A stretch of DNA of 48,147 nucleotides. Source: a virus. Shown here piece after piece: positions 1,149-48,147 of this stretch. The position numbers and the translations under genes were made by a program. The DNA lies in the IMG/VR virus record IMGVR_UViG_3300047471_000431, positions 1-48,147 of that record. The stretch is one strand, 5' to 3'. Below the pieces are notes generated by a model. It was not told where the DNA came from. It did no database searches and saw only the letters and a list, made by a program, of their open reading frames with translations. The stretch's first letter is position 1, and each line of letters starts with the position of its first letter.

Positions 1149-3095
1149 CTAAAATATACCTCCGCCGACCACTCTAAGAAGCCCCGCCCCACTCTGTTGC
1201 ATTGTTGCTTCAATACGACCACGAAAACCTGCTGATGTCCCATTACCGTTGTCCGCTTTTATCATCATACGGTACGTCCCGCCATCCAAGTATAAGTTCA
1301 CAGAATTAGCTATGATGTCCTCAAAAGCGTTGGTTCCTGTAGCATTCACATTCTTCGTCAGAACTGGATTAAAACTTCCTCTTGTCCATGCCTTTGCATC
1401 ATCGCTATATGCAAATCCTATCCCATCAGTATCGGTGAATACGCCAGTAGGACACCCACCATACCATGCGATGTATTTACCGGTTGTAGTATCGTAGGTA
1501 AAACCGGGTTGAAAAACGGAGCCAACGTCCCACGAACCCGCTGCGCCTTTCGCAATTACTGGGTTACCGGCGTATGGAGTCCATGTCAAACCTCGGTCTG
1601 TAGATTCAGCTTCGCCAATCTGATTTACATTGCTGCCATCGGCCCCCTCAAAAATCATCACCATCAGATTTGAAGACCGCCGCACAACAATAGCTCCATC
1701 AGACCTGCCAGAATTCCAGGAACCACCAGCGCCCTCGCAGACAACACAAGCACCACCATTCTGTACCTGCCAATTACCTGCAGTTGTGCAGGTAACAATA
1801 GATGATGAGTTACATTTGGCGTAATAGATTCGTCTAGTACCGGGAGAATTATTTCCACCGTGGAACCACGCCTTCCAGACATTATCGTCCGGATCGAACA
1901 TAAGTGTACTGACTGAGGTCTCAGCAGAAACCGCAGCTTTAAATGTTGTCGTTTGCCCGGCAGTTAGACCACTAACGATATTATTAACGTTAAAAACAGC
2001 ACTAGACGAGACATCCTGTTGACCGTTAAAATTCCATGTTGTACCGTCTGGCGATGTCGCATATATAGATGGCGTGTCATATTGGAATGTCCCACCTTGA
2101 TTGCCGACATCGAGAGCTTTCGCCCCAGTATCATTTTCTATAAATCCGATATAATTACCCGCGCCCAACTTCAAAATAGCCCCCGGACCTATCTGGTCGG
2201 AAACTCCGGCATTGGCCCCTCCAGACCATCCAAGGTTTTGCATAAATGGCTCAGGTGTAGTCTTAGTTAGCTGTCCAGATAGAGTTGTGACACCAGTTGT
2301 GCCGATGTTTGGACCACGCGTTTTAATACCGGCTGGATCGGTCGATGAATAAACCGCTCCCGTAACTCGTCCCCAATTGCCATTGCCGGAAAGGTCGGTA
2401 ACGAGAGTTGCTCCATCGTCCTTCGCGCCGAATTCGTACCACGCCTGCAAGCCGCTGATGGAGTACGGCGTCACGGCATCGTTATAGAGATCAGTAACGT
2501 TCTGCGCCGTCAATGCGACATTATAGAGCAGCAATCGTCTTTCAAGACCATTCAGGAAATTCACAGGTGCGCCAGTTCCACCCTTCGCCCCTATCTGGGC
2601 GGGGACGGCATTCAAGATAGTAGATCCCACCAAATTATCAGCGACTGTTGTTTTAGATACCGAAGCCCCATCCACATACATCGTGACGCCGGATGCCAGC
2701 CCGTTACCGTTATAAGTCATCACCACGTGATGGTAAGTATTCAATGTCAGCTGATCTGCCGCCGACTGAACAACAACGTGAGCCGTGGTCGCATTCTGAA
2801 TTGTGAACTGTAGTTTAGGAAATGACGATCCGGTTGCAACGAAAAAGATCCAGCCTCGATTATTTGCCGTAGCGTCTGACTTGCCCATCATGCAAGCACC
2901 GGCATTTGTCTTCATACTAATCCAAACAGCGGCACTCCACGCCTGTGTATACTCCCAGTTGCCGAGCGTTGTGTTCAAATCGATCCGCTGAGATGAGGCT
3001 GACGTGAAGTCACGCGAGGCAAATGCGGAGTTGGTGGCTAGTACAAACAGTACCGATGCTAGGAACAGTGAGCGTTTTATGAATAGATTTCTCAT
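1149..3095 (-). CDS. Secreted LamG plus glycosidase-like beta-propeller protein, possible depolymerase or receptor-binding protein
   Basis: This 648-residue protein starts with a signal peptide (about residues 1-26, ending AFAS). Residues about 35-215 form a LamG/concanavalin-like lectin domain (VVMTYNGNG, VSKTTV, PAQIGAKG, LLLYNVALTAQNVTDLYNDA). From about 290 to the end come repeated blade-like units of a five-bladed propeller of the GH43/GH130 kind (KAWFHGGNN, RRIYYAKC, GFAYSDDAKAWTRG). Such proteins bind or cut surface polysaccharides. No catalytic residues can be assigned from sequence alone. It lies 5 nt downstream of the 110-residue membrane protein in the tail-fibre end of the late operon. 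A signal peptide is odd for a virion protein, which enters the particle in the cytoplasm, so a secreted enzyme is an alternative. Confidence 0.7.
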   Translation of the reverse strand: MRNLFIKRSLFLASVLFVLATNSAFASRDFTSASSQRIDLNTTLGNWEYTQAWSAAVWISMKTNAGACMMGKSDATANNRGWIFFVATGSSFPKLQFTIQNATTAHVVVQSAADQLTLNTYHHVVMTYNGNGLASGVTMYVDGASVSKTTVADNLVGSTILNAVPAQIGAKGGTGAPVNFLNGLERRLLLYNVALTAQNVTDLYNDAVTPYSISGLQAWYEFGAKDDGATLVTDLSGNGNWGRVTGAVYSSTDPAGIKTRGPNIGTTGVTTLSGQLTKTTPEPFMQNLGWSGGANAGVSDQIGPGAILKLGAGNYIGFIENDTGAKALDVGNQGGTFQYDTPSIYATSPDGTTWNFNGQQDVSSSAVFNVNNIVSGLTAGQTTTFKAAVSAETSVSTLMFDPDDNVWKAWFHGGNNSPGTRRIYYAKCNSSSIVTCTTAGNWQVQNGGACVVCEGAGGSWNSGRSDGAIVVRRSSNLMVMIFEGADGSNVNQIGEAESTDRGLTWTPYAGNPVIAKGAAGSWDVGSVFQPGFTYDTTTGKYIAWYGGCPTGVFTDTDGIGFAYSDDAKAWTRGSFNPVLTKNVNATGTNAFEDIIANSVNLYLDGGTYRMMIKADNGNGTSAGFRGRIEATMQQSGAGLLRVVGGGIF

Positions 3096-3100
3096 ATATT

Positions 3101-3433
3101 TTAAATTTTCTGTTTGTTTCCATTTCTGTATGTCAATAGAAGTAAAATACCCTGCAACATGGTCAACGTTACTCCGATGCCAATGCCGATGCCTGTAAAT
3201 CTATCCATTGAAGATTTCAATGCTTCAAACTGTTTCACTTCCGCATCCTGGCGTATTGTATTGTCCGAGACTTCTTTATCTAGACGGTCAAGTCTCGCTT
3301 CGAGAAGCGCATTAGTAGTCTCCTGAGATTGTTTCACCGGAAGTGTATAGACACCTTGGCCGACAAGAGCGGTGCTGCAAAGTAAGAATATGAAAAACAC
3401 TATCTGTAGCATTATCTGTAACCTGCGCATCAT
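3101..3433 (-). CDS. Small two-TM protein with central coiled coil, holin/XhlA-like
   Basis: The 110-residue product has a hydrophobic N-terminal segment (about residues 8-24), a charged helical middle with heptad character (about 33-78), and a second hydrophobic segment (about 81-101) followed by a basic tail. This layout resembles XhlA-type lysis accessory proteins, although those normally have one C-terminal TM. The N-terminal segment could instead be a signal peptide. It sits just before a secreted protein and a DUF2778 enzyme, so a holin-like role is reasonable but unproved. Confidence 0.65.
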   Translation of the reverse strand: MMRRLQIMLQIVFFIFLLCSTALVGQGVYTLPVKQSQETTNALLEARLDRLDKEVSDNTIRQDAEVKQFEALKSSMDRFTGIGIGIGVTLTMLQGILLLLTYRNGNKQKI

Positions 3434-3520
3434 CTTCGATGAACCTCTAGCTAAGCCTTTCTACAACAAGCACAGACTATTGTAGAGGATGGTCACCTAA
3501 GCCATTTTGTGCCCCAGTTC

Positions 3521-6500
3521 TTATGCGCCGTTCGACAGCATGTTAGTAATACCGGTTACCTGCATAGTTGGGTTTTCCGGGCTGAGATCCATGGATATAC
3601 GTAATACACGTACCGTCTGCCCACTATAAACTACTGAATAGGTAGGTGATCCGGTATGATTGAACTTTCGCGCTCTCCAATGAGTGACACCTAGCACTGT
3701 ATTAACATCAATCAAGTCATACATGTTCGATCCGAATACAAGAACGCCGGAAGCGTAATGCTGGTATACACGATCGGCACCGATTGCCGTGTTATAAAGT
3801 GCCACATTCGCCATGTTCCCAGCAAAGTGAGAAGTTCCGCCGACAGACATACCCAGTTCCAAATTGACTGCATTATCTGCTAGTGTTGAAGTGCTCGTAA
3901 CATCGGAAACATCTACCCCATTGAGATAGACATGCACATCTGTACCGTTTTTGGTGCAGCAGATATGCGACCACTGATTAATCTGGACAGCTACCGTAGA
4001 AAATGCCAGCACAGCTGCCCCGGATTTTACAAAAGAAATAATTCCACTGGACCCGATCTGCACTCCGTAGGCATTTGCTCCCTTGTCGATAATATACGGA
4101 GAAGTACTCAAATCGGTCGGGTATACCCAAACTTCGCAGGTGCATACATCCCCGAGATCGATAAGAGAACTGTCCAATACAAGAGCATTACTTGTCGAAC
4201 CATTGAATAAAGTTGAGGTATTCGAATCTTCCAACAACGGACCAGTCTGCCCATTCGTACAGAAAAGAAAACTTCCACTGTAATTATTGCCACTGGAATC
4301 GAGCATCGTAGATGTCACATCATTCATGCGATACAATACGGATGGAATATCCCGCAGCACTTGCAGTGCGTAGATCAAGTCTCTATTCACACAAGACAAT
4401 GGAAATTTAACTGACGGGAATTGGACAGCTGGCCCCATCAATTCTGAGTATCGATACGTCATTGATGTAGATACACCGGCCAAATCATCTCCAATCAATC
4501 TTTCATTAAGCACGAGAGGAATGTAGTCTTTAACAACAGCCGTGCCCAGAGTACCGCGAAGATCAGTCGGGGCTAACGGGGATACGAGATATGCATTCTT
4601 GAGCGGACTAAACAGCCGGTTAATCTGAATAGCCGACATGAATTGCTGATTTGACGGCACCATCAAACTGTCCCTGAGAATGTCGTACTTATCAGTTACC
4701 TGGAAATCTGCAGACTGTGTCGAGCTTGCACTGGTATAGATGTAAGGCGCGTAAAGATTGCTTCTAGTACTGTACACAGATAGCAAAAACGATACTTGGA
4801 ATTCAAGCAGCAAATCTTGCTGTGTCATTGTTGCTTCAGTTAAAACAAAACCAGCTCTAAGTGGAGTGCTGACGGCTGATACTGTATTGGCCTCAGCTTT
4901 CAAGGCTTCGGATACCCAAAGATTGACCTTCAAACTTGCCGCAGCAAACCCGAAGAACTGAGTCATGAATTGATACAGGACAGTAACTGGATTTTCCAGA
5001 AAAATAGGCTCTGTACCGTTATTGTAATGTACTAGAATGCGAGCAGCCGACAAGGCTGTCGGGTAAATAGCCATTTCATCTATCGTGCCGTTGAAAAAAT
5101 CCGCAGTTGTAGAGATCGTACGGCCCATGTTCAACGCGGATGCTGTACCGGCAATTGTTCTATTTAAGATGACAGTTGTAGAATCGGCACCGTTGATATA
5201 GATATGAATTGCAGAGCCGTTCTTAGTAACCGCGATATGCGTCCAGACTCCATTTGTTAACGATGACAGATTCTGTGCAATAAGCCCCACACTCTCCTTG
5301 GAGAGCATAACTAGAATTGTGCCGAGAGTATTCTGCAGTGTAACGAGATAACCATTCGCACCCTTCGAAAATATAGTGTGTGTTGTCCCGGCTGATGTAT
5401 TAGGTTTTACCCAGCATTCTAATGTGAATACGTCTCCTGGATCGAGCAATGCATTGTCTGGAACTGTAATATATTGAGTGCTGCCGTTTAGCAGAACAGC
5501 CTTGTTTGGATCACCCAATAAAGGACCGGTTTGCTGCTTAGTTGGTGCTCCGACATACGTGCCGGTTTGCGCATTAGCTGTGTTATCAGCTGCAGTTGTT
5601 GCCGCAGAAGCATCATTAAGACGCCAGTAAGCACTTGGCGAGTCGGCCATGACTTCAAGATCATATCGGGTATTGCCGGATGTCATGCCACGCGCAACGA
5701 CTGCAATCTCCTGTAACTGTGCACGGTCGGGATCTCGCTGATCGAAATCGAAATCTATGACGGTCATTAGGACTCCGCCATATGTTGCAGTTGTTACGGT
5801 ATATGCGGTCCAGTAGTCTGTAGGCTGTTCTAAAACTTCGTACCGATAGACAGCATCGACAGACATGCATACATGCTGGGCGACGACATAACGATATTTA
5901 GCTGAACCGATCGCCGGGTCGATTAGAAATGCCGGAGAAATGCCAGGAATACCGATCCCCGAACTCATATCACCAACAATGATCGGCACAAGCTGATTTA
6001 AATAACGGCATGGAGAGCCGTCCAGCTCTGTTGGAAGATTCGGAAATAATGCAGCTGTGAATGTTTTCCCGGCAGAGTTGCCATATCCATAAGTGGATAA
6101 TGGATTTGCAAATACAGACCACACATTCGATTGTGTCTGGACTTCCCCAGTCAGAATATTGTGTGCGGTGATTTCACATTGCAGTTCACTCATTGTCCAG
6201 GATGAGATAGATCCGGTGAACAGCGTTGTGAATGAAGCCTCCCCATAGTCTGGATCACCAATCTTGATTACAACAGTCTTGCCCTCTGGATTGCCTTGGT
6301 ATGTTGTCAGAGCCGTTGAAATCTCTCCGTTGCGGTCCATCAAAGTAACAACAGCGTCTGTCTTGGAAAACGACCCTGTTAGATGGTCAACAGAGCGCTC
6401 AAGTCCACTGATGCCAAGTAATAGATCCGTATAATCATGCGAGGCTGTACGCAATCTCTGGTACGAATAATACCCGGTAAAGTCTACTCCGTCCGTGGCG

Positions 6501-24413: not shown

Positions 24414-24487
24414 GCTCCTGTAGTCCAATCGGAAGAGGCGTCTCACTCAAAACGAGAATGTTGGTGGTTCGAATCCACTCAGGAGTA
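24414..24487 (+). tRNA. tRNA with anticodon CAA, class I body
   Basis: Acceptor GCTCCTG/CAGGAGT, D arm GTCC..GGC, anticodon loop CTCAAAA (anticodon CAA), 5-nt variable loop, T arm GGTGG-TTCGAAT-CCACT, A73. CAA would read the Leu codon UUG, but Leu tRNAs have a long variable arm and this one does not. Pair 31-39 is A-C. The loop resembles a Met tRNA loop (CTCATAA) with one change. Which amino acid it carries is open. Confidence 0.8.
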
Positions 24488-24499
24488 TTTGATAGTCAT

Positions 24500-24572
24500 C
24501 TCTCTGTAGCTAATGAGGTCATAGCGCTCGTCTGAAGAACGAGAGAATTCGGCTCGATACCGAACGGAGAGA
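24500..24572 (+). tRNA. tRNA-Phe(GAA)
   Basis: Acceptor CTCTCTG/CGGAGAG, D stem GCTA/TAGC, anticodon stem CTCGT/ACGAG with loop CTGAAGA, T arm TTCGG-CTCGATA-CCGAA (C at the usual T54), A73, followed by CTTT. Confidence 0.85.
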
Positions 24573-24576
24573 CTTT

Positions 24577-24662
24577 GCGGTAGTAGTCGTGTACGGCGCA
24601 CGGGCAGACTGTAAATCTGTCGTCCCTTGAGTTCCCAGTCGGTTCGATTCCGACCTGCCGCA
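24577..24662 (+). tRNA. tRNA-Tyr(GTA)
   Basis: Acceptor GCGGTAG/CTGCCGC, loop CTGTAAA, long variable arm as expected for bacterial Tyr, T arm GTCGG-TTCGATT-CCGAC, A73 then CTTT. Confidence 0.92.
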
Positions 24663-24666
24663 CTTT

Positions 24667-24750
24667 GGAGAGTCTAACGATCGGCGTGTGTAGCAGTCTT
24701 GAAAACTGTAGTGCAGCAATGCATCGGGGGTTCGAGTCCCCCACTCTCCT
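24667..24750 (+). tRNA. tRNA-Ser(TGA)
   Basis: Acceptor GGAGAGT/ACTCTCC, loop CTTGAAA, long variable arm, T arm GGGGG-TTCGAGT-CCCCC. The discriminator base is T, unusual for Ser (normally G). Confidence 0.9.
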
Positions 24751-24755
24751 CTTTC

Positions 24756-24837
24756 GCTCTCATGCTGGAACAGGCATACAGCTATCGCTGAGAACGGTAG
24801 GTCGAAAGACGTAAGGGTTCAATTCCCTTTGAGAGCA
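24756..24837 (+). tRNA. tRNA-Leu(GAG)
   Basis: Acceptor GCTCTCA/TGAGAGC, anticodon stem TATCG/CGGTA with loop CTGAGAA, variable arm GTC-GAAA-GAC, T arm AAGGG-TTCAATT-CCCTT, A73. Confidence 0.9.
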
Positions 24838-24841
24838 CTAC

Positions 24842-24925
24842 GCCCGCATGGCGGTAATGGCTGTACGCACTGGTCTTAGAAGCCAGCAGATTAAATTCTT
24901 GGGGGTTCGAGTCCCTCTGCGGGTA
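24842..24925 (+). tRNA. tRNA-Leu(TAG)
   Basis: Acceptor GCCCGCA/TGCGGGT, anticodon stem CTGGT/GCCAG with loop CTTAGAA, long variable arm, T loop TTCGAGT, A73 then CTTT. Confidence 0.9.
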
Positions 24926-24929
24926 CTTT

Positions 24930-24972
24930 GGAATAGTTGCTTTGACACGTGACATGGATGTATTCTATTCCG
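24930..24972 (+). pseudogene. tRNA remnant: acceptor stem only
   Basis: In exact array register after A-CTTT, GGAATAG (24930-24936) pairs with CTATTCC (24965-24971), followed by G in the discriminator place. Only 28 nt lie between the halves instead of about 60, so D, anticodon and T arms are gone. The interior contains TTGACA (24942-24947) and, 16 nt on, TCTATT, a possible promoter for the HNH gene that starts at 24974. Confidence 0.5.
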
Positions 24973-24973
24973 C

Positions 24974-25417
24974 GTGAAGTATAGATATACAGATGAGCAA
25001 CTACGTAGTGCTGTAGCAAAGCATACCTCCATAAGCAGCGTCATGGCTGCATTAGGCATACGATGGGCCGGAGGGAGCCATTGTAATATCCGTCGTCGCA
25101 TCGAAAGAGCGCAGATCGACACAAGTCATTTCTCCGGGCAAGGACACCGAAGGGGAAAGGCCGCTCTCAATCGCAGACACTGGTCCGACATACTAATCGA
25201 CAGATCAGGTATAGGATATAGACGGGAACAAACAGACAGGCTACGTCGTGCTCTACTGGAATCCGGAAGAATCTATGAATGCGAACTGTGCACGAATGCG
25301 GGTGATTGGAACGGTAGAACACTAGTTCTTGAGATCGATCACAGAGACCGCAATTGGTTGGATGATCGAGCCGAGAATCTTAGATTTCTCTGTCCCAACT
25401 GTCACAGTCAGGTTTAG
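24974..25417 (+). CDS. HNH homing endonuclease in the tRNA array
   Basis: The 147-residue protein starts at GTG 24974 (KYRYTDEQLRSAV). The N-terminal half holds the YTDEQL and ALGIRWAGGSHCNIRRRIER DNA-binding motif typical of phage HNH proteins. The C-terminal half holds the HNH: CELC, LEIDHRD, DRAENLRFLCPNCHS, with two zinc CxxC pairs and the catalytic D-H plus N and H. It ends right after CHSQ, a few residues shorter than relatives. No ribosome site precedes it and the start abuts a tRNA remnant, so transcription and translation may begin at nearly the same base. Such enzymes cut related genomes and spread their own gene. Confidence 0.9.
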   Translation: MKYRYTDEQLRSAVAKHTSISSVMAALGIRWAGGSHCNIRRRIERAQIDTSHFSGQGHRRGKAALNRRHWSDILIDRSGIGYRREQTDRLRRALLESGRIYECELCTNAGDWNGRTLVLEIDHRDRNWLDDRAENLRFLCPNCHSQV

Positions 25418-25426
25418 GCTACTTTT

Positions 25427-25645
25427 ATGAATGACTTTCTCCGTGTCGAGATCTTCTCTCTGGATGAGGCATATCTGGTTCTGATGCGCCCAGGTACTGG
25501 AGAGTTAGGTGGGGCCGAAGAGATCAGCCGGATGAAAGTCCCATACGAGACTATGAAAGATATGGTGACTCAGGACTGGATAAGAGAGTCGTTGTATGAT
25601 AACGTAGTTTTCGCGGAGAACGGTATCTTCTCCTGTAAGTTTTGA
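25427..25645 (+). CDS. Small unknown acidic protein
   Basis: The 72-residue product begins at ATG 25427, 9 nt after the HNH stop. It is acidic, alpha/beta-like (FLRVEIFSLDEAYLVLMRPG, then ETMKDMVTQDWIRESLYDN), with no known motif. Its TGA overlaps the first two bases of the tRNA-Cys gene. Confidence 0.55.
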   Translation: MNDFLRVEIFSLDEAYLVLMRPGTGELGGAEEISRMKVPYETMKDMVTQDWIRESLYDNVVFAENGIFSCKF

Positions 25646-25715
25646 GCGCTTGGTCGAATGGTAAGGCGGATGTCTGCAAAACATCCTTGTGTGGGTTCGA
25701 TTCCCTCAGCGCTCT
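25644..25715 (+). tRNA. tRNA-Cys(GCA)
   Basis: Acceptor GAGCGCT/AGCGCTC, anticodon stem ATGT/ACAT with loop CTGCAAA, T73, the Cys identity base. The T stem GTGGG/CCCTC has one mismatch. Followed by CTTA. Confidence 0.88.
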
Positions 25716-25725
25716 CTTAGATTTT

Positions 25726-25877
25726 CTCGCCATCGCATGAGTACATGGTACCGACGTATGTTGGGGACTGAGGCTGCTAGCGCTGGGCGGTCCTGGCGGG
25801 GAAGGTAATGCAGGCTCATCCCCCGGTTTAGAGACCGGTCCAGAAGCCCTCCAAAGGGGTCCGGCTTGCAGGAATAT
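25726..25877 (+). other. Structured non-coding spacer between tRNA-Cys and tRNA-Gln
   Basis: The 152-nt stretch has no tRNA and no convincing gene but is rich in pairing: CTCGCCA (25726-25732) with TGGCGGG (25794-25800), GGACTG/CGGTCC inside it, CCGGT-TTAGAG-ACCGG, and AAGCC-CTCC-AAA-GGGG-TCC-GGCTT. It is read through from the array promoter. A processed RNA or degraded tRNAs are both possible. Confidence 0.4.
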
Positions 25878-25949
25878 AGGCGTGTAGTTCAGCGGCAGAA
25901 CGGTTGCCTTTGAAGCAACTAGTCATCGGTTCGAGTCCGATCGCGCCTT
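25878..25949 (+). tRNA. tRNA-Gln(TTG)
   Basis: Acceptor AGGCGTG/CGCGCCT, D stem GTTC/GAAC, anticodon stem GTTGC/GCAAC with loop CTTTGAA, T arm ATCGG-TTCGAGT-CCGAT, T73, then CTTT. Confidence 0.88.
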
Positions 25950-25953
25950 CTTT

Positions 25954-26042
25954 ACGGACGTGGCTGAGTGGTCGAAAGCTCCGGATTCCAAACCCGGATG
26001 ACTGTAATAGTCGCATCGTGTGTCCGAATCACACCGTCCGTG
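25954..26042 (+). tRNA. tRNA with anticodon CCA (Trp) on a class II, Ser-like body
   Basis: Acceptor ACGGACG/CGTCCGT, Ser/Leu-type D arm (GGCTGAGTGGTCGAAAGC), anticodon stem CCGG/CCGG with loop TTCCAAA (anticodon CCA), A31-C39 mismatch, and a 20-nt variable region with GACT-GTAAT-AGTC. T arm GTGTG-TCCGAAT-CACAC, G73. Trp tRNAs have a short variable loop. SerRS reads the long arm and not the anticodon, so this tRNA could carry Ser to UGG; that is inference. Confidence 0.8.
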
Positions 26043-26047
26043 CTTAT

Positions 26048-26120
26048 GCCGAGGTAGCCTTAATGGTAGAGGTGGCGCACTGTGAATGCGTCTGTCAGAG
26101 TTCGAATCTCTGTCTCGGTA
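26048..26120 (+). tRNA. tRNA-His(GTG)
   Basis: Acceptor GCCGAGG/TCTCGGT, D stem GCCT/AGGT, anticodon stem GCGCA/TGCGT with loop CTGTGAA, T arm CAGAG-TTCGAAT-CTCTG, A73. The base at -1 is T, not G as in normal bacterial His tRNAs, and would face A73. Confidence 0.88.
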
Positions 26121-26124
26121 CTTC

Positions 26125-26212
26125 GGAAGAGTGTCCGGAATTTGGTCAACGGACCTGACTGCTAATCAGGCGACGAGTAATCGTCATGGAGGTTCGAGTC
26201 CTCTCTCTTCCG
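26125..26212 (+). tRNA. tRNA-Ser(GCT)
   Basis: Acceptor GGAAGAG/CTCTTCC, anticodon stem CCTGA/TCAGG with loop CTGCTAA, variable arm GACGA-GTAA-TCGTC, T loop TTCGAGT, G73 as expected. Confidence 0.92.
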
Positions 26213-26220
26213 CTTTTAAT

Positions 26221-26305
26221 GCCCTTGTGGTGGAATTTGGTAGACGCGGTCGGCTTAAACCCGGCTATCCTTCGGGATATCACGGTTCGAATCCGTGCAG
26301 GGGCA
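26221..26305 (+). tRNA. tRNA-Leu(TAA)
   Basis: Acceptor GCCCTTG/CAGGGGC, Leu-type D arm, anticodon stem GTCGG/CCGGC with loop CTTAAAC, variable arm ATCC-TTC-GGGAT, T arm CACGG-TTCGAAT-CCGTG, A73. Confidence 0.92.
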
Positions 26306-26310
26306 CTCAT

Positions 26311-26386
26311 CGTGACGTATAGAAGTCTGGTTTTTCTAACCGGTCCTGGAAACCGGCAAGCGCAGGTTCGAATCCTGCCGTCACGA
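26311..26386 (+). tRNA. tRNA-Pro(TGG) with C33
   Basis: Acceptor CGTGACG/CGTCACG, D stem TAGA/TCTA, anticodon stem CCGGT/ACCGG with loop CCTGGAA, T arm GCAGG-TTCGAAT-CCTGC, A73. Position 33 is C where almost all tRNAs have T. Confidence 0.82.
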
Positions 26387-26391
26387 CTTAT

Positions 26392-26467
26392 AGCGTAGTG
26401 CGGAAGTCTGGTCATCCTTCCTGCTTCGGAAGCAGGCAATTCGTGGGTTCAAATCCCACCTACGCTA
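26392..26467 (+). tRNA. tRNA-Pro(CGG)
   Basis: Acceptor AGCGTAG/CTACGCT, anticodon stem CCTGC/GCAGG with loop TTCGGAA, T arm GTGGG-TTCAAAT-CCCAC, A73. Its D arm resembles that of the neighbouring Pro tRNA (GAAGTCTGG), suggesting duplication. Confidence 0.9.
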
Positions 26468-26471
26468 CTAT

Positions 26472-26544
26472 GGGGGCATAGCAAAGTCTGGCAATGCATC
26501 CGGCTCTGACCCGGACATCGGAGGTTCAAATCCTTCTGCCCCTT
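26472..26544 (+). tRNA. tRNA-Gln(CTG)
   Basis: Acceptor GGGGGCA/TGCCCCT, anticodon stem TCCGG/CCGGA with loop CTCTGAC, T arm GGAGG-TTCAAAT-CCTTC, T73, then CTTA. Last tRNA of the array. Confidence 0.9.
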
Positions 26545-26570
26545 CTTACACTAACTGCCTACGATAATTT

Positions 26571-29219: not shown

Positions 29220-29775
29220 TATTTTGGATTCGCTTTACCGGCAAAGCGAACAGATGATGCTGTCGAGTCCTGTAACGCTCAGTGACACAAAATTCTTTTT
29301 ACCGAATTCCAAGTTCGGTGCATTTATGTCAGCTCAGTTTGATGGCAGACTGATTTATGATGTTGGGGCTGGAGTCGGGCATGTCGCGAAAGAGCTTACG
29401 GAACGCGGTCTGAAAGTTATCGCGATTGATATCATCAGACGGCAGGACACAGAATTCAATGTAGAAATGGTGCCTGGATCGGCGTGCGGTTACCGTCGCG
29501 GTTCGGTTGTCATGCTATGCCGTCCGTGTCACGGGTCTTTTATAGAGATGGTGTTTCGGCAAGCTGTTATGTGTAAAGCTGGGACACTAGTCTATGTCGG
29601 CAAGCAATCCAATGTTGCTGGAGATCTCGGCGGGTGGCGTTACCGTGGAAAGAATCCTGCTCGTATTCAGTTTAAGAAAATGCTGTCGAATGCCGGAAAA
29701 GATGGTGAGCATGTATGGGTTGCAAATTTACCCCTATTTGGTCAGACGCCGGTAGCCGCGCCGGGTAATGTCTAA
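29212..29775 (+). CDS. Class I SAM-dependent methyltransferase-like protein
   Basis: Motif I is plain: LIYDVGAGVGHVAKELTERG followed by VIAIDI as the acidic strand-2 end. The rest is short for the family and lacks a clear catalytic motif. I place the start at TTG 29212, which overlaps the stop of the 52-residue gene and follows GGGTGG; ATG 29254 and a GTG at 29122 are alternatives. A target is not evident. Its 3' end overlaps the convergent HNH gene by 42 nt. Confidence 0.6.
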   Translation: MYSILDSLYRQSEQMMLSSPVTLSDTKFFLPNSKFGAFMSAQFDGRLIYDVGAGVGHVAKELTERGLKVIAIDIIRRQDTEFNVEMVPGSACGYRRGSVVMLCRPCHGSFIEMVFRQAVMCKAGTLVYVGKQSNVAGDLGGWRYRGKNPARIQFKKMLSNAGKDGEHVWVANLPLFGQTPVAAPGNV

Positions 29776-30216
29776 CTTGAGCCTGTTATCATCTTTGAAC
29801 TTGGAGCGCTCGCGATAGATTTTGCGGATCTTGAATAGTTCTTCGGTAGCTTGTTGCGGATTGCGTTTATAGCCATCCTTGGTGATTTCGATCCAGCGAT
29901 GGCAGCGGCTGCAAACTGACCACAAGTCACTAGGAACCATTCCAGACAGGTTCTCCAGGGTATACGCTCCGTGATGTACCTGCATTATAGCCTGACCGTC
30001 TCGTCTGGCACAGGCGTAACACTCCGGATCTTGTGCCAGTTTCTGCTCTCGAATAGATTTCCACAGCGGTGACCGCAAATACGCCGGATAATCCTTGAAA
30101 CCCAGTTCGATCAAAATCTGATTTCTTTCAGCATAGGCATCCATATTTTGTCCTGGTTTTACCTTATTTCGGAACCTGCTGGTAAATCTACGTTTACGAC
30201 GTCTTCGACGAACCAT
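29734..30216 (-). CDS. HNH-type nuclease, convergent orientation
   Basis: The 160-residue product has a strongly basic N-terminus (RRRRRKRRF), then YPAYLRSPLWKSIREQKL, CYAC, QVHHGAYTLENL and CSRCHRW: a zinc-bound HNH with paired His. It is the only minus gene in the early block and overlaps the methyltransferase tail. Opposite orientation and overlap suggest a later insertion. Nicking or homing activity is inferred from family. Confidence 0.75.
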   Translation of the reverse strand: MVRRRRRKRRFTSRFRNKVKPGQNMDAYAERNQILIELGFKDYPAYLRSPLWKSIREQKLAQDPECYACARRDGQAIMQVHHGAYTLENLSGMVPSDLWSVCSRCHRWIEITKDGYKRNPQQATEELFKIRKIYRERSKFKDDNRLKLDITRRGYRRLTK

Positions 30217-44975: not shown

Positions 44976-45812
44976 ATGCCAGCTAAATATACTCCTGTTC
45001 CGGGAGAGATATACGGTTCTTGGACTGTAATCAGTGATGCAGGGGTAGGTCGAGATAGGTCTACTCTTGTTAAATGTGTTTGTGCATGCTCCCCAGCCAC
45101 TGAGCTTACACGAAAATATATCGATGTGCGTACTACGCAATCTTGCCGTCGCTGTAGTAATAAGTCTAGGTTAGCGATCCATAAACCTGTTCCAGGGCAG
45201 CAAATACAGAAATGGACAATTACCGGAATTGCTGGCCGAGACAAACGTAGACGTTTGTTAGTTCGATGCTTCTGTAGCTGCAACCCAACTATGGAATGCG
45301 TTCGAGACTACAGTAGATTGCTGCGTTCATCATCTGGATGTAGGAAGTGCTCTGCTGGCGATCCAGCATTGCGGACAAACCGGACAAAAGTCATTACTGC
45401 ATGGGTGAGTAGAGGACGAGGACGACCGAGAGGTAGTTATAAAGTAACATTGGAAACAAACTCAGAAAAGTTGGGGTTGCGTAGAGCGTATCATGCCTAC
45501 CAGTCTGGAGCGTATAGGCGCTATATTCAGTGGGATCTTTCGATGCGAGATTGCTCTGCCTTGTTTAAGGCAGATTGTCACTATTGCGGGATACCTCCTG
45601 CGCCGGTAGGAAAAGGTAAATGTGTATATATCCGCAATGGTATAGATCGCGTGGACAATGATAAAGGTTACATATCAGGTAACGTGGTGTCATGTTGTTC
45701 GGTATGTAATATCGCTAAGCGTATACGTACTCAGGAGGAGTTTGAAGCCTGGATTATCCGAGCTGCCGCGCACATTTCCTCCCGTCAAAAACCTCTTGCG
45801 GCTAGCGCCTGA
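44976..45812 (+). CDS. HNH homing endonuclease with two zinc repeats
   Basis: The 278-residue product begins at the base after the RNR stop. Two related repeats (about 10-62 and 70-130) each contain W(T)VI, a basic strand and C.C...C..C sets, probable zinc-based DNA-binding modules. The C-terminal part has CHYCG, NGIDRVDNDKGY and CSVCN: HNH with zinc pairs. The basic linker (GRGRPRGSYK) is an AT-hook-like DNA contact. Insertion right behind RNR is a usual site for homing genes in phages. Confidence 0.8.
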   Translation: MPAKYTPVPGEIYGSWTVISDAGVGRDRSTLVKCVCACSPATELTRKYIDVRTTQSCRRCSNKSRLAIHKPVPGQQIQKWTITGIAGRDKRRRLLVRCFCSCNPTMECVRDYSRLLRSSSGCRKCSAGDPALRTNRTKVITAWVSRGRGRPRGSYKVTLETNSEKLGLRRAYHAYQSGAYRRYIQWDLSMRDCSALFKADCHYCGIPPAPVGKGKCVYIRNGIDRVDNDKGYISGNVVSCCSVCNIAKRIRTQEEFEAWIIRAAAHISSRQKPLAASA

Positions 45813-45824
45813 CTGGTGTATACT
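45796..45824 (+). promoter_or_regulatory. Promoter giving a leaderless transcript
   Basis: TTGCGG (45796-45801), 17 nt, TATACT (45819-45824). The ATG at 45833 is 8 nt after the -10, where transcription would start. Confidence 0.6.
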
Positions 45825-45832
45825 GCACGGTC

Positions 45833-46246
45833 ATGACACGACTCCAGGCTCTAGATAAGCAGTTAGAAGATCTGCAAGAGAAGCGTGCAAAGGCTCTTCG
45901 CACATTCCGGCTGCGATGTAAACATCTCCACATTATCGAAGAAGAATATAAGCCGTGTGATGCCGGGAGATCTGATCCTCCATACCGTATATGTGCAGAC
46001 TGTGGGGCGATTGAGCGCGGCTGGTACTGCGGATACCACGTTCTAACTACGGCAGACGACACTACTGCTAAGATCCCAGCACGTAAAATTGTGCAAACGA
46101 TCAAAGCTGGGCAGCGGCACACGATTCCTGTGATGAGGAATCACTGGCCAATCTACTATGTCGGACAGAGCCATGCCAATTTTGTAGGCGGAGGCGTAAA
46201 AAGTTACGAGTCACTGATTGCAATTCCACCGGTAAAGAAGCCCTAG
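45833..46246 (+). CDS. Small protein with coiled coil and zinc ribbon
   Basis: The 137-residue protein has an N-terminal coiled coil (LQALDKQLEDLQEKRAKAL), then CKH, CD, CADCGAIERGWYCGYH: a zinc ribbon. The remainder is basic. It is probably leaderless: no ribosome site, -10 box 8 nt before the ATG. Function unknown. Confidence 0.65.
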   Translation: MTRLQALDKQLEDLQEKRAKALRTFRLRCKHLHIIEEEYKPCDAGRSDPPYRICADCGAIERGWYCGYHVLTTADDTTAKIPARKIVQTIKAGQRHTIPVMRNHWPIYYVGQSHANFVGGGVKSYESLIAIPPVKKP

Positions 46247-46260
46247 ATCTGCTGCCGCAA

Positions 46261-46290
46261 ATTGATCACCCGTTTGAGGGTCTGAGTCAC
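46261..46290 (+). repeat. Left copy of duplicated polymerase 5' segment
   Basis: Thirty bases encode IDHPFEGLSH in a frame that then stops (TAA at 46297-46299). The same ten residues are encoded again at 46747-46776 with six base changes, all synonymous. This copy is the stranded original 5' end of the polymerase gene. Confidence 0.8.
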
Positions 46291-46300
46291 ACTACATAAG

Positions 46301-46750
46301 ATGCCATATAAGAATAAGGCTGTTAAGGCGGCATATGCCAAACTATGGTACCAGAACAATAAGGATAGGTCTAGGAACTCTAAACGTGTGTGGCGTAAGA
46401 TGCGCGGAGAGCATTTTCTCCATTCCGAGCGCAAACATAATAAAGAACGTGCACGTAAAATTAGATTACTAGCATTACAGCGTTACGGTAATCTCTGCAA
46501 GTGTTGTGGAGAAACAATCACAGAATTCCTAACTTTTGATCATATCAATGCTGACGGGGCCGCTGAGCGCCGTGCTATAGGAAGAGTTCAGCTTATGTGG
46601 AAATTGGCGTACGGCCCATTGCGCAGTGATATTCAAATATTATGTGCTAACTGTAATTCATCATTAGGTTTCTATGGGTTCTGCCCGCATAACCCTACCG
46701 TACACAGGCCGATTATCAGAAACGGGAGACCATGCAAGAACGCCACATAG
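46301..46750 (+). CDS. HNH endonuclease inserted at the 5' end of the polymerase gene
   Basis: The 149-residue product has a Lys/Arg-rich helical N-terminus (KAAYAKLWYQNNKDRSRN), then CKCCGE, LTFDHINADGAAERRAIG and CANCNSSLGFYGFC: a zinc HNH. The start at ATG 46301 has no ribosome site. Its last 19 bases overlap the polymerase start ATG 46732 (with GGGAGA upstream). It sits between the two copies of the polymerase segment, as expected for a homing gene that landed in the polymerase 5' end. Confidence 0.85.
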   Translation: MPYKNKAVKAAYAKLWYQNNKDRSRNSKRVWRKMRGEHFLHSERKHNKERARKIRLLALQRYGNLCKCCGETITEFLTFDHINADGAAERRAIGRVQLMWKLAYGPLRSDIQILCANCNSSLGFYGFCPHNPTVHRPIIRNGRPCKNAT

Positions 46751-48147
46751 ATCACCCTTTTGAAGGATTAAGTCACCTGTTGGTGCCGCCCGACGGGCCG
46801 GAAGATTCTCCGGTACTTCTCATTGGCGAGTCTCCAGGTCACGAGGAAGACGAGACCGGTATACCTTTCTCTGGCAAGTCTGGGCGCGAACTGAACGAAT
46901 ACTATCTCCCGCGTGCGCAGCTACGACGCCGGGAAGTTCGCATCACCAATCTCATTCCTGTCCATCCGTACACGAATCGCAACCCTACCAAGGAAGAGAT
47001 TGCCTTTTTCGAACACATCCTGCTTGAGGATATTGCGAAGACGAAGCCACGCATTATTGTGCCGATGGGCGCTTTCGCCGCTAAGTACTTCCTGGGTCCT
47101 GTTGACATGGGTACTGTCCACGGACTGCCGTTTAAGAGCAAAACGTTCGACTGTACAATTCTTCCAAGCTTTCACCCAGCTGCGGGACTCTATAGCACGG
47201 ATACGCAGCCGCAGATTGTTTATGACTTCGAGCAAGTCAGTCTCGCGATTCAAGGCAAGCTACCTGACCGGCAATTGGATCTATATCCTGACCCGGCATA
47301 TATCGAGCTGACAACTTATAAAGAAGTGCGGCAGTCACTGGACGGTTCCGGTGCTCTATTGATGGGACTGGACACAGAAGGCTACAAAGGAACACCGTGG
47401 GGGCTGTCTTACAGCATTTCAGAGGGTGTGGCTTACGTTATTCGAGCTGCCAGCAAAGAAGCTCTACAGGCGTTCGCGGACTGGATTCGAGAACATCCGG
47501 AATGTCTGATTATCCTGCACAATGCATTGCACGATCTTCCAATTCTCCGGGAGATGGGTGTCCATGTAAAAAACTTCGAAGATACGATGGTCTATGCCTA
47601 CGCGTTGTGTGTCGAGCCGCAAGGTCTGAAGGATCTCTCGTTTCGGCATTGTGGGATGAAAATGAAATCCTATGAGGATGTCACTGGCCCGGCAATGCGC
47701 AAACTTACTGCGGAGTACTTGATTAAAGTAGCGTCCGGCGATTGGGGACTCGATCCGCAGGTTCCGGAGCGCGAATCGGATCAGGTTGTACGTTACAGAC
47801 AGCCGCAGGCACTGCATAAGCGTGCTTTGCGTGTCGTTAATGATACTTTCGGTTTCTATACCGGCACAATTATCGGTCCTCGGAACGGCGGCTCTGCAAA
47901 ACTGGATGAAATAGGCGTGCGTGTCGGCAAAGTAGACCACGAGACTGTTGTCCGGTTAGGTCTGCGCACGGAGACTGTCGTACGCGGTAAGAAGCCTAAT
48001 AAAGTAACTGGACTAGTCAGGGAGAAAATTGTCGCAACACAGACTGAGAATGCTTGGCACGCCGAAGTTCCTATTACAGTCATGCAAACTCTGGATCAGT
48101 TCTGGGGTGAATTTATCTGGGAATTACAGCCTCCAATTGCACCGGAT
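46732..48147 (+). CDS. UDG-exonuclease-DNA polymerase fusion, 3' end outside window
   Basis: From ATG 46732 at least 472 residues are visible. Residues about 20-190 form a family-4 uracil-DNA glycosylase-like domain: LIGESPGHEEDETG, FSGKSGRELN, TNLIPVHPYTNRNPT and ILPSFHPAAGL. From about 200 a 3'-5' exonuclease follows: LMGLDTEG (first DxE), LHNALHDLPIL (second Asp), FEDTMVYAYALC. The family A polymerase core should lie beyond the edge. It is the replicative polymerase. The UDG part could remove or only sense uracil. The first ten or so residues come from the HNH-linked segment. Confidence 0.9.
   Translation, partial: MQERHIDHPFEGLSHLLVPPDGPEDSPVLLIGESPGHEEDETGIPFSGKSGRELNEYYLPRAQLRRREVRITNLIPVHPYTNRNPTKEEIAFFEHILLEDIAKTKPRIIVPMGAFAAKYFLGPVDMGTVHGLPFKSKTFDCTILPSFHPAAGLYSTDTQPQIVYDFEQVSLAIQGKLPDRQLDLYPDPAYIELTTYKEVRQSLDGSGALLMGLDTEGYKGTPWGLSYSISEGVAYVIRAASKEALQAFADWIREHPECLIILHNALHDLPILREMGVHVKNFEDTMVYAYALCVEPQGLKDLSFRHCGMKMKSYEDVTGPAMRKLTAEYLIKVASGDWGLDPQVPERESDQVVRYRQPQALHKRALRVVNDTFGFYTGTIIGPRNGGSAKLDEIGVRVGKVDHETVVRLGLRTETVVRGKKPNKVTGLVREKIVATQTENAWHAEVPITVMQTLDQFWGEFIWELQPPIAPD

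Follow-up and report, generated by a model that had tools for sequence, protein, structure and literature searches.

A silently recoded polymerase segment beside a phage HNH endonuclease gene and its counterparts at other nuclease loci

Near the right end of the viral DNA analysed here, a stretch of 48,147 nucleotides that we call the window, an HNH endonuclease gene stands between two copies of a short polymerase segment. This layout raises the question of how a nuclease gene can lie in the 5' part of a polymerase gene and leave the residues of the polymerase unchanged, and why the two copies differ in their codons. An earlier note on this DNA had read the locus as a natural form of cleave-and-rescue, in which a recoded copy restores the polymerase that the nuclease gene disrupts.

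The interrupted polymerase gene in the window

The left copy, ATTGATCACCCGTTTGAGGGTCTGAGTCAC (46261-46290, + strand), and the right copy, ATAGATCACCCTTTTGAAGGATTAAGTCAC (46747-46776, +), are identical at 24/30 nucleotides and 10/10 amino acids. As the earlier note had stated, both encode IDHPFEGLSH and the six differences among the 30 bases are all silent (6/6). Random change at six positions would be entirely silent with a probability of 3e-5, and chance cannot explain this pair of copies. The next best 30-mer match to the right copy within the 48 kb window reaches 17/30, and when both strands of the window were scanned over their full length, this pair was the sole amino-acid direct repeat with a spacing of 200-2000 nt. 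Repeat finding extended the repeat to 33 nt, and the right-hand limit of homology is identical in the two copies (...AGTCAC). The GC content is 37% in the right copy and 62% in the next 60 bases of the polymerase gene.

The two copies differ in their context, again in agreement with the earlier note, which had reported a stop two codons after the left copy and a polymerase start inside the HNH gene. The left copy, which is directly followed by ACT ACA TAA, forms the end of an open frame (46087-46299, +) that is a cut-off older 5' part of the polymerase. The left junction, ACTACATAAG (46291-46300, +), thus consists of two codons, the TAA of the vestige and a single base before the ATG of the HNH ORF (46301-46750, +; 149 aa); similar stop/start junctions are found in L007 and L282. 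No ATG, GTG or TTG start was found upstream in the left frame, so that in its present state the vestige cannot be expressed as a gene from any of the usual start codons. In the ORF list, the polymerase starts with an ATG at 46732, within the HNH ORF, and the new start codon and five-codon leader, MQERH (46732-46746, +), precede the right copy; the same overlap occurs in L282, L166 and L048. One of the six changes, ATT to ATA at base 46749, also creates the TAG stop codon of the HNH gene (46748-46750), so that there may be a separate reason for this change. The remainder of the polymerase gene (46777-48147, +) runs off the contig. The left copy is a severed piece of the old 5' end of the polymerase gene, and the right copy, together with the new ATG in the HNH 3' end, restores a polymerase with a UDG domain and a PolA-type exonuclease. 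The right edge of the insertion probably lies between 46776 and 46777, and the uninterrupted, joined site would read ...GGTCTGAGTCAC directly followed by CTGTTGGTGCCG.

The assignment of both genes is based on profile and protein matches. The 149-aa ORF matched the HNH endonucleases of PHROG with an E-value of 6.7e-7 and, in tblastn, annotated phage HNH proteins with E-values down to 7e-15. In an alignment with the latter, C66, C69, H81, N117 and C118 were among the invariant columns, and the protein has the zinc-binding cysteines and the DH motif of an HNH nuclease domain. A Pfam search of this ORF and a search of solved structures with the HNH profile gave no match. The interrupted gene matched Pfam UDG (1.2e-26), followed by DNA_pol_A_exo1 (1e-6), and PHROG DNA polymerase (3e-22), and encodes a uracil-DNA-glycosylase domain and then a PolA-type 3'-5' exonuclease. 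The closest polymerases in IMG/VR are only 34-46% identical. A search of IMG/VR for relatives of the window phage coding for DHPFEGLSH gave no match, and no HNH-less relative of this phage was found there.

Among these IMG/VR polymerases, the nearest HNH-bearing one to that of the window is encoded by L007. There, an HNH gene with a similar N-terminus (MPYKN) sits at another place in the same type of gene and simply splits it into two expressed parts; the left junction reads TAATG, and the ATG of the downstream part lies within the HNH gene. As L007 carries no rescue copy, such a copy is not obligatory. The UDG-polymerase of L007 (5926-9003), split with overlapping stops and starts and free of duplication, is a candidate genes-in-pieces polymerase. 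The window gene, by comparison, does not consist of two expressed parts: its polymerase is whole from 46732, and the left piece is without a usual start.

The window contains further genes of this kind. The stop of a ribonucleotide reductase gene is immediately followed by a second HNH/EndoVII-like ORF (44976-45812, +; junction TAGATG), whose start context is shared with the HNH gene at 46301. Its flanks showed no recoded repeat. Another HNH gene, recognised by Pfam (24974-25417, +), lies within a cluster of 15 tRNA genes (24414-26545), and an ORF at 29734-30216 (-) appears HNH-like by eye (HH and CxxC motifs).

The same layout at other nuclease loci

A second silent repeat (ILNCDA) was found around an insertion in the PolA gene of L011, a locus that we identified through its HNH gene. 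Therefore, HNH and EndoVII loci were gathered from IMG/VR and GTDB, and the translated DNA before each nuclease gene was compared with that after it, using flanks swapped between loci as null. In the first locus set, null pairs scored at most 50, compared to 76-78 for L032, L039 and L048 and 58 for the window. With search intervals tied to the nuclease ends, 12/238 unique loci scored at least 41, compared to 0.27% of 4739 swapped pairs; one of the 12, L078, was rejected for its low complexity. L282 was missed by this narrow interval and found in a separate comparison, and L011, whose repeat is short and reaches only P = 0.014 on score, was included for its anatomy. About 12 other HNH/EndoVII loci of phages and archaea share the layout in unrelated target genes, and the combination of nuclease, disrupted target and recoded copy is supported as a class.

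The loci fall into two forms. In the N-terminal form, the right copy belongs to the intact gene and the left copy is cut off; it comprises the window, L048, L027/L026 (target DNA methyltransferase), L049, L011, L166, L282 (target DNA polymerase, with an EndoVII-type nuclease) and L265. In the C-terminal form, the left copy belongs to the intact gene and the old end is displaced; it comprises L032 (target ATPase), L039, L311 (target methyltransferase), the archaeal L319 and L284, and in L032 and L319 this old end now forms the tail of the HNH ORF. Most of these target names derive from sequence motifs only. The copies of the recurrent cases are 6-21 codons long and 54-80% identical in nucleotides. 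The insertion, the duplication, the silent differences and their recurrence can thus be read from the DNA itself, and the anatomy that the earlier note had described is real and recurs.

Other flank repeats were rejected: whole-gene tandem paralogues in L015, repetitive or tandem HNH genes in L310 and L230, a partial and a whole Dam methylase in L243, tRNA-adjacent or non-coding repeats in L317 and L314, and paralogues in L107 and others. In L243, the HNH genes between the truncated and the whole Dam-type methylase (2244-4444) may represent a whole-gene version of the same idea. No recoded flanks were found in twelve isolate phages with EndoVII genes. In L265, the EndoVII-type nuclease gene (2833-3261) is in frame with the vestige, and its translation from the interrupted gene's own start is possible. 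In L011, the polymerase frame meets a TAG after the recoded ILNCDAKGL copy (1957-1990), owing to a frameshift, decay or an assembly error.

Relatives without the nuclease and the polarity of the copies

The earlier note had predicted that relatives lacking the HNH gene would carry the left-type sequence. This is the case for one well-sampled polymerase, and for the window phage no such relative was found. The L282 polymerase has 80 matches at 71-100% identity. In L361 and L362, which are the same element in two assemblies, the vestige reads AAGCACTGGGTAATGGATTATGAAACATTATCTAAT and the rescue copy AAACACTGGGTTATGGACTACGAGACCCTTCAAAAT. Of the nuclease-free relatives, 76/77 resemble the vestige more than the rescue copy, the remaining one lies at equal distance from both, and 0/77 resembles the rescue copy more; the six closest differ by 1-3 nt from the vestige and by 10-12 nt from the rescue copy. 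The displaced piece of L361 therefore matches the relatives without the ORF, and the carried piece does not. When the rescue copy of L361 is divided into three bins of 12 bases, its divergence from L364 is 17, 25 and 50%, and the rest of the gene diverges by 4-9%. The high divergence is limited to the 36 duplicated bases and drops from the next base, exactly at the insertion point; since it is confined to the duplicated stretch, the tract of L361 is not a long conversion tract. The alignments thus establish the polarity (vestige as native sequence) and the exact tract length, decisively for L361 only. By analogy with L361, the left copy of the window is presumably the native sequence as well.

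At the other loci, comparison with empty sites was limited by the available relatives. Those of the L319 genome are too distant, and the target gene is absent from relatives of L311. The vestige of L265 reads PSHYGQ, as in phage CRP-9, and the Roseobacter phages are too diverged for an empty-site comparison at base level; the same holds for L284 and the cyanophages and pelagiphages. Synechococcus phage S-SRM01 has an EndoVII gene (L444, 881-1340) that is 75% identical in DNA to that of L284 and follows a gene ending in RKRWNC, similar to the L284 target (RKWNCE), apparently without a displaced copy.

L363 carries no nuclease gene. Just before its polymerase gene lie the putative last nuclease codons (MLEKAINYLKMYE, followed by a stop), and the N-terminus of the polymerase is rescue-like, unlike those of its relatives. 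The match of 13 residues is weak on its own (E = 5.9) and rests on its position. L363 seems to be a scar left after loss of the nuclease gene, in which the recoded copy was kept.

Origin of the silent differences

In 13 cases, both copies have the same degenerate amino acid at 128 positions, and the codon is identical at 36/128. Independent draws would give 54 identical codons with the codon usage of the locus (P = 0.0004), 50 with the product of locus and nuclease usage (P = 0.004) and 45 with uniform usage (P = 0.04), and in pairs of polymerase orthologues the ratio of observed to expected codon sameness is 1.08. The list of cases was compiled by hand, and L317 was left out as a tRNA-adjacent or non-coding repeat. 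These numbers suggest that codon sameness was avoided and not merely lost over time, and foreign codon usage could explain part of the effect. The window by itself does not inform this comparison, with 5/10 codons identical and 3.8 expected. If recognition by the enzyme spans the insertion point, a rescue copy with native codons would recreate the original site, and hence some degree of recoding is expected.

The differences could also be ordinary divergence: the HNH gene and the right copy may have come together from a diverged phage that kept the same residues in other codons, as the earlier note had considered. Six differences that are all silent are what two functional alleles would show, the right copy fits the codon usage of HNH genes slightly better than that of the phage, and the same anatomy in fungal mitochondria has been interpreted as a foreign gene end acquired horizontally (PMC3630166). 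However, the divergent tract of L361 covers exactly the duplicated bases and resembles none of the 77 relatives (71-96% identity), which weakens this explanation for L361; in the window, too, both copies share the exact right-hand end of the homology, and codon sameness is lower than for independent sequences. We regard divergence of this kind as an unlikely substitute for selected recoding, and an origin from a diverged phage and a rescue function can both be true.

Two further explanations fit the data poorly. Target duplications of a few bases are frequent at insertions, and a plain direct duplication followed by drift would leave the vestige free to change, the silent pattern being luck. 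Yet the copies span 6-21 codons, the low probability of six silent changes given above applies to exactly this case, and in L361 it is the functional gene that changed and the vestige that stayed conserved, so that we disfavour drift as highly improbable. Phage polymerase genes are common hosts of introns, and the HNH gene could be the ORF of a self-splicing intron or an intein, with the left copy as exon end; in Salmonella phage PC79-13 (L355, 1214-1978), an EndoVII-type ORF between two annotated DNA-polymerase pieces may belong to a group I intron. In the window, however, a search of 45800-47100 gave no Rfam intron match even with E-values of up to 5 allowed, the HNH gene is bounded by in-frame stops, and a spliced product would contain the same ten residues twice, which makes an intron or intein the least probable of these origins, with hardly any weight left to it.

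A model for the cassette and its relation to known systems

We consider it quite likely that the HNH gene of the window is a mobile homing-endonuclease cassette which carries a new start and a recoded rescue of the polymerase 5' end. Such a cassette would have entered the polymerase gene in its 5' coding part and brought, at the cassette's own 3' end, the new start and a recoded copy of the approximately 30 bases left of the insertion point; the polymerase residues would remain unchanged and the left vestige would retain the original DNA sequence. Upon co-infection with a phage lacking the cassette, the HNH endonuclease would cut or nick the unrecoded, uninterrupted sequence, and the cassette would be copied during repair, with homology arms provided on the left by the vestige and the DNA upstream of it and on the right by the polymerase gene past the recoded copy. 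Recoding would leave the enzyme no site in the rescued gene, prevent looping-out between the two repeats and keep repair from ending early on the second copy. Cleavage, its block by recoding, immunity, homing and the window's own polarity are predictions of this model.

The closest known kind of element in anatomy are mobile endonuclease ORFs of fungal mitochondria that bring a replacement C-terminus, described for Glomus atp6, atp9, cox2 and nad3, with Allomyces atp6 cited there (PMC3630166). In these, too, an endonuclease ORF in a conserved gene brings a restoring coding piece, and the displaced native piece matches the relatives; the atp6 copies are 91% similar in protein and 63.5% in DNA, and the authors inferred transfer from a foreign species (PMC3630166). 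Likewise, in the window, L361 and others, a piece carried by the ORF replaces the native piece, which stays displaced. The fungal ORFs replace C-termini, as do L032, L039, L311, L319 and L284, whereas the window and seven others replace N-termini, with the new start overlapping the nuclease stop; HNH/EndoVII enzymes, phage and prokaryotic hosts and pieces of 6-21 codons are features of the present loci. Among phages, the closest precedent is mobE of phage Aeh1, which encodes a free-standing HNH homing nuclease and is inserted into nrdA, a gene of DNA metabolism, in a genes-in-pieces arrangement; in T4, a stop/start overlap of mobE suggests translational coupling (PMC2988022). Unlike in the window, the Aeh1 protein is made as two polypeptides and no recoded copy is described (PMC2988022), a simpler outcome that L007 represents. 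Our search of the phage literature, which covered few subscription journals, found no description of recoded flanks of nuclease genes.

In function, the layout is analogous to engineered home-and-rescue drives, of which HomeR is the nearest design. HomeR places 22 or 27 recoded codons at the insertion site in the polymerase-subunit gene PolG2 (PMC7968924). Here as there, the element would sit at the cut site in an essential gene, where the recoded stretch restores the protein and, in HomeR, prevents gene conversion between rescue and endogenous gene (PMC7968924); in the window, the recoded copy at the target keeps 10/10 amino acids despite six silent changes, and elsewhere it covers 6-21 codons. 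HomeR is engineered, Cas9-based, C-terminal and works in the fly, whereas cutting, homing and an essential target are predicted for the present loci. In ClvR, a nuclease is tightly linked to a recoded, cleavage-resistant version of an essential target (PMC7951863). The genomic position of its endogenous target is free, a complete gene serves as rescue, and the element spreads through the death of non-carriers and not by homing (PMC7951863). Since the window element is inserted within its own target, which argues for homing rather than spread of the ClvR type, the term cleave-and-rescue used in the earlier note is better replaced by home-and-rescue.

More generally, and with confidence evenly divided for and against, we propose that natural home-and-rescue drives are widespread in phages, as HNH/EndoVII cassettes with short recoded N- or C-terminal target pieces. 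Recoding would be selected for nuclease immunity and repeat stability, and the elements would pass through a cycle of insertion, spread and nuclease loss, with a recoded (resistant) allele as its remnant; L363 points to such a cycle. In the search for homing nucleases and the places where they probably cut, short silent direct repeats on either side of a nuclease gene may serve as a signature, and such cassettes may account for puzzling additional starts and displaced ends of genes in annotated phages. If true, evolution already uses the recoded-rescue logic devised by gene-drive engineers, and these loci would provide natural data on sufficient recoding, element decay and resistant alleles. 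A selfish nuclease could then occupy an essential gene without an intron, an intein or splitting of the protein.
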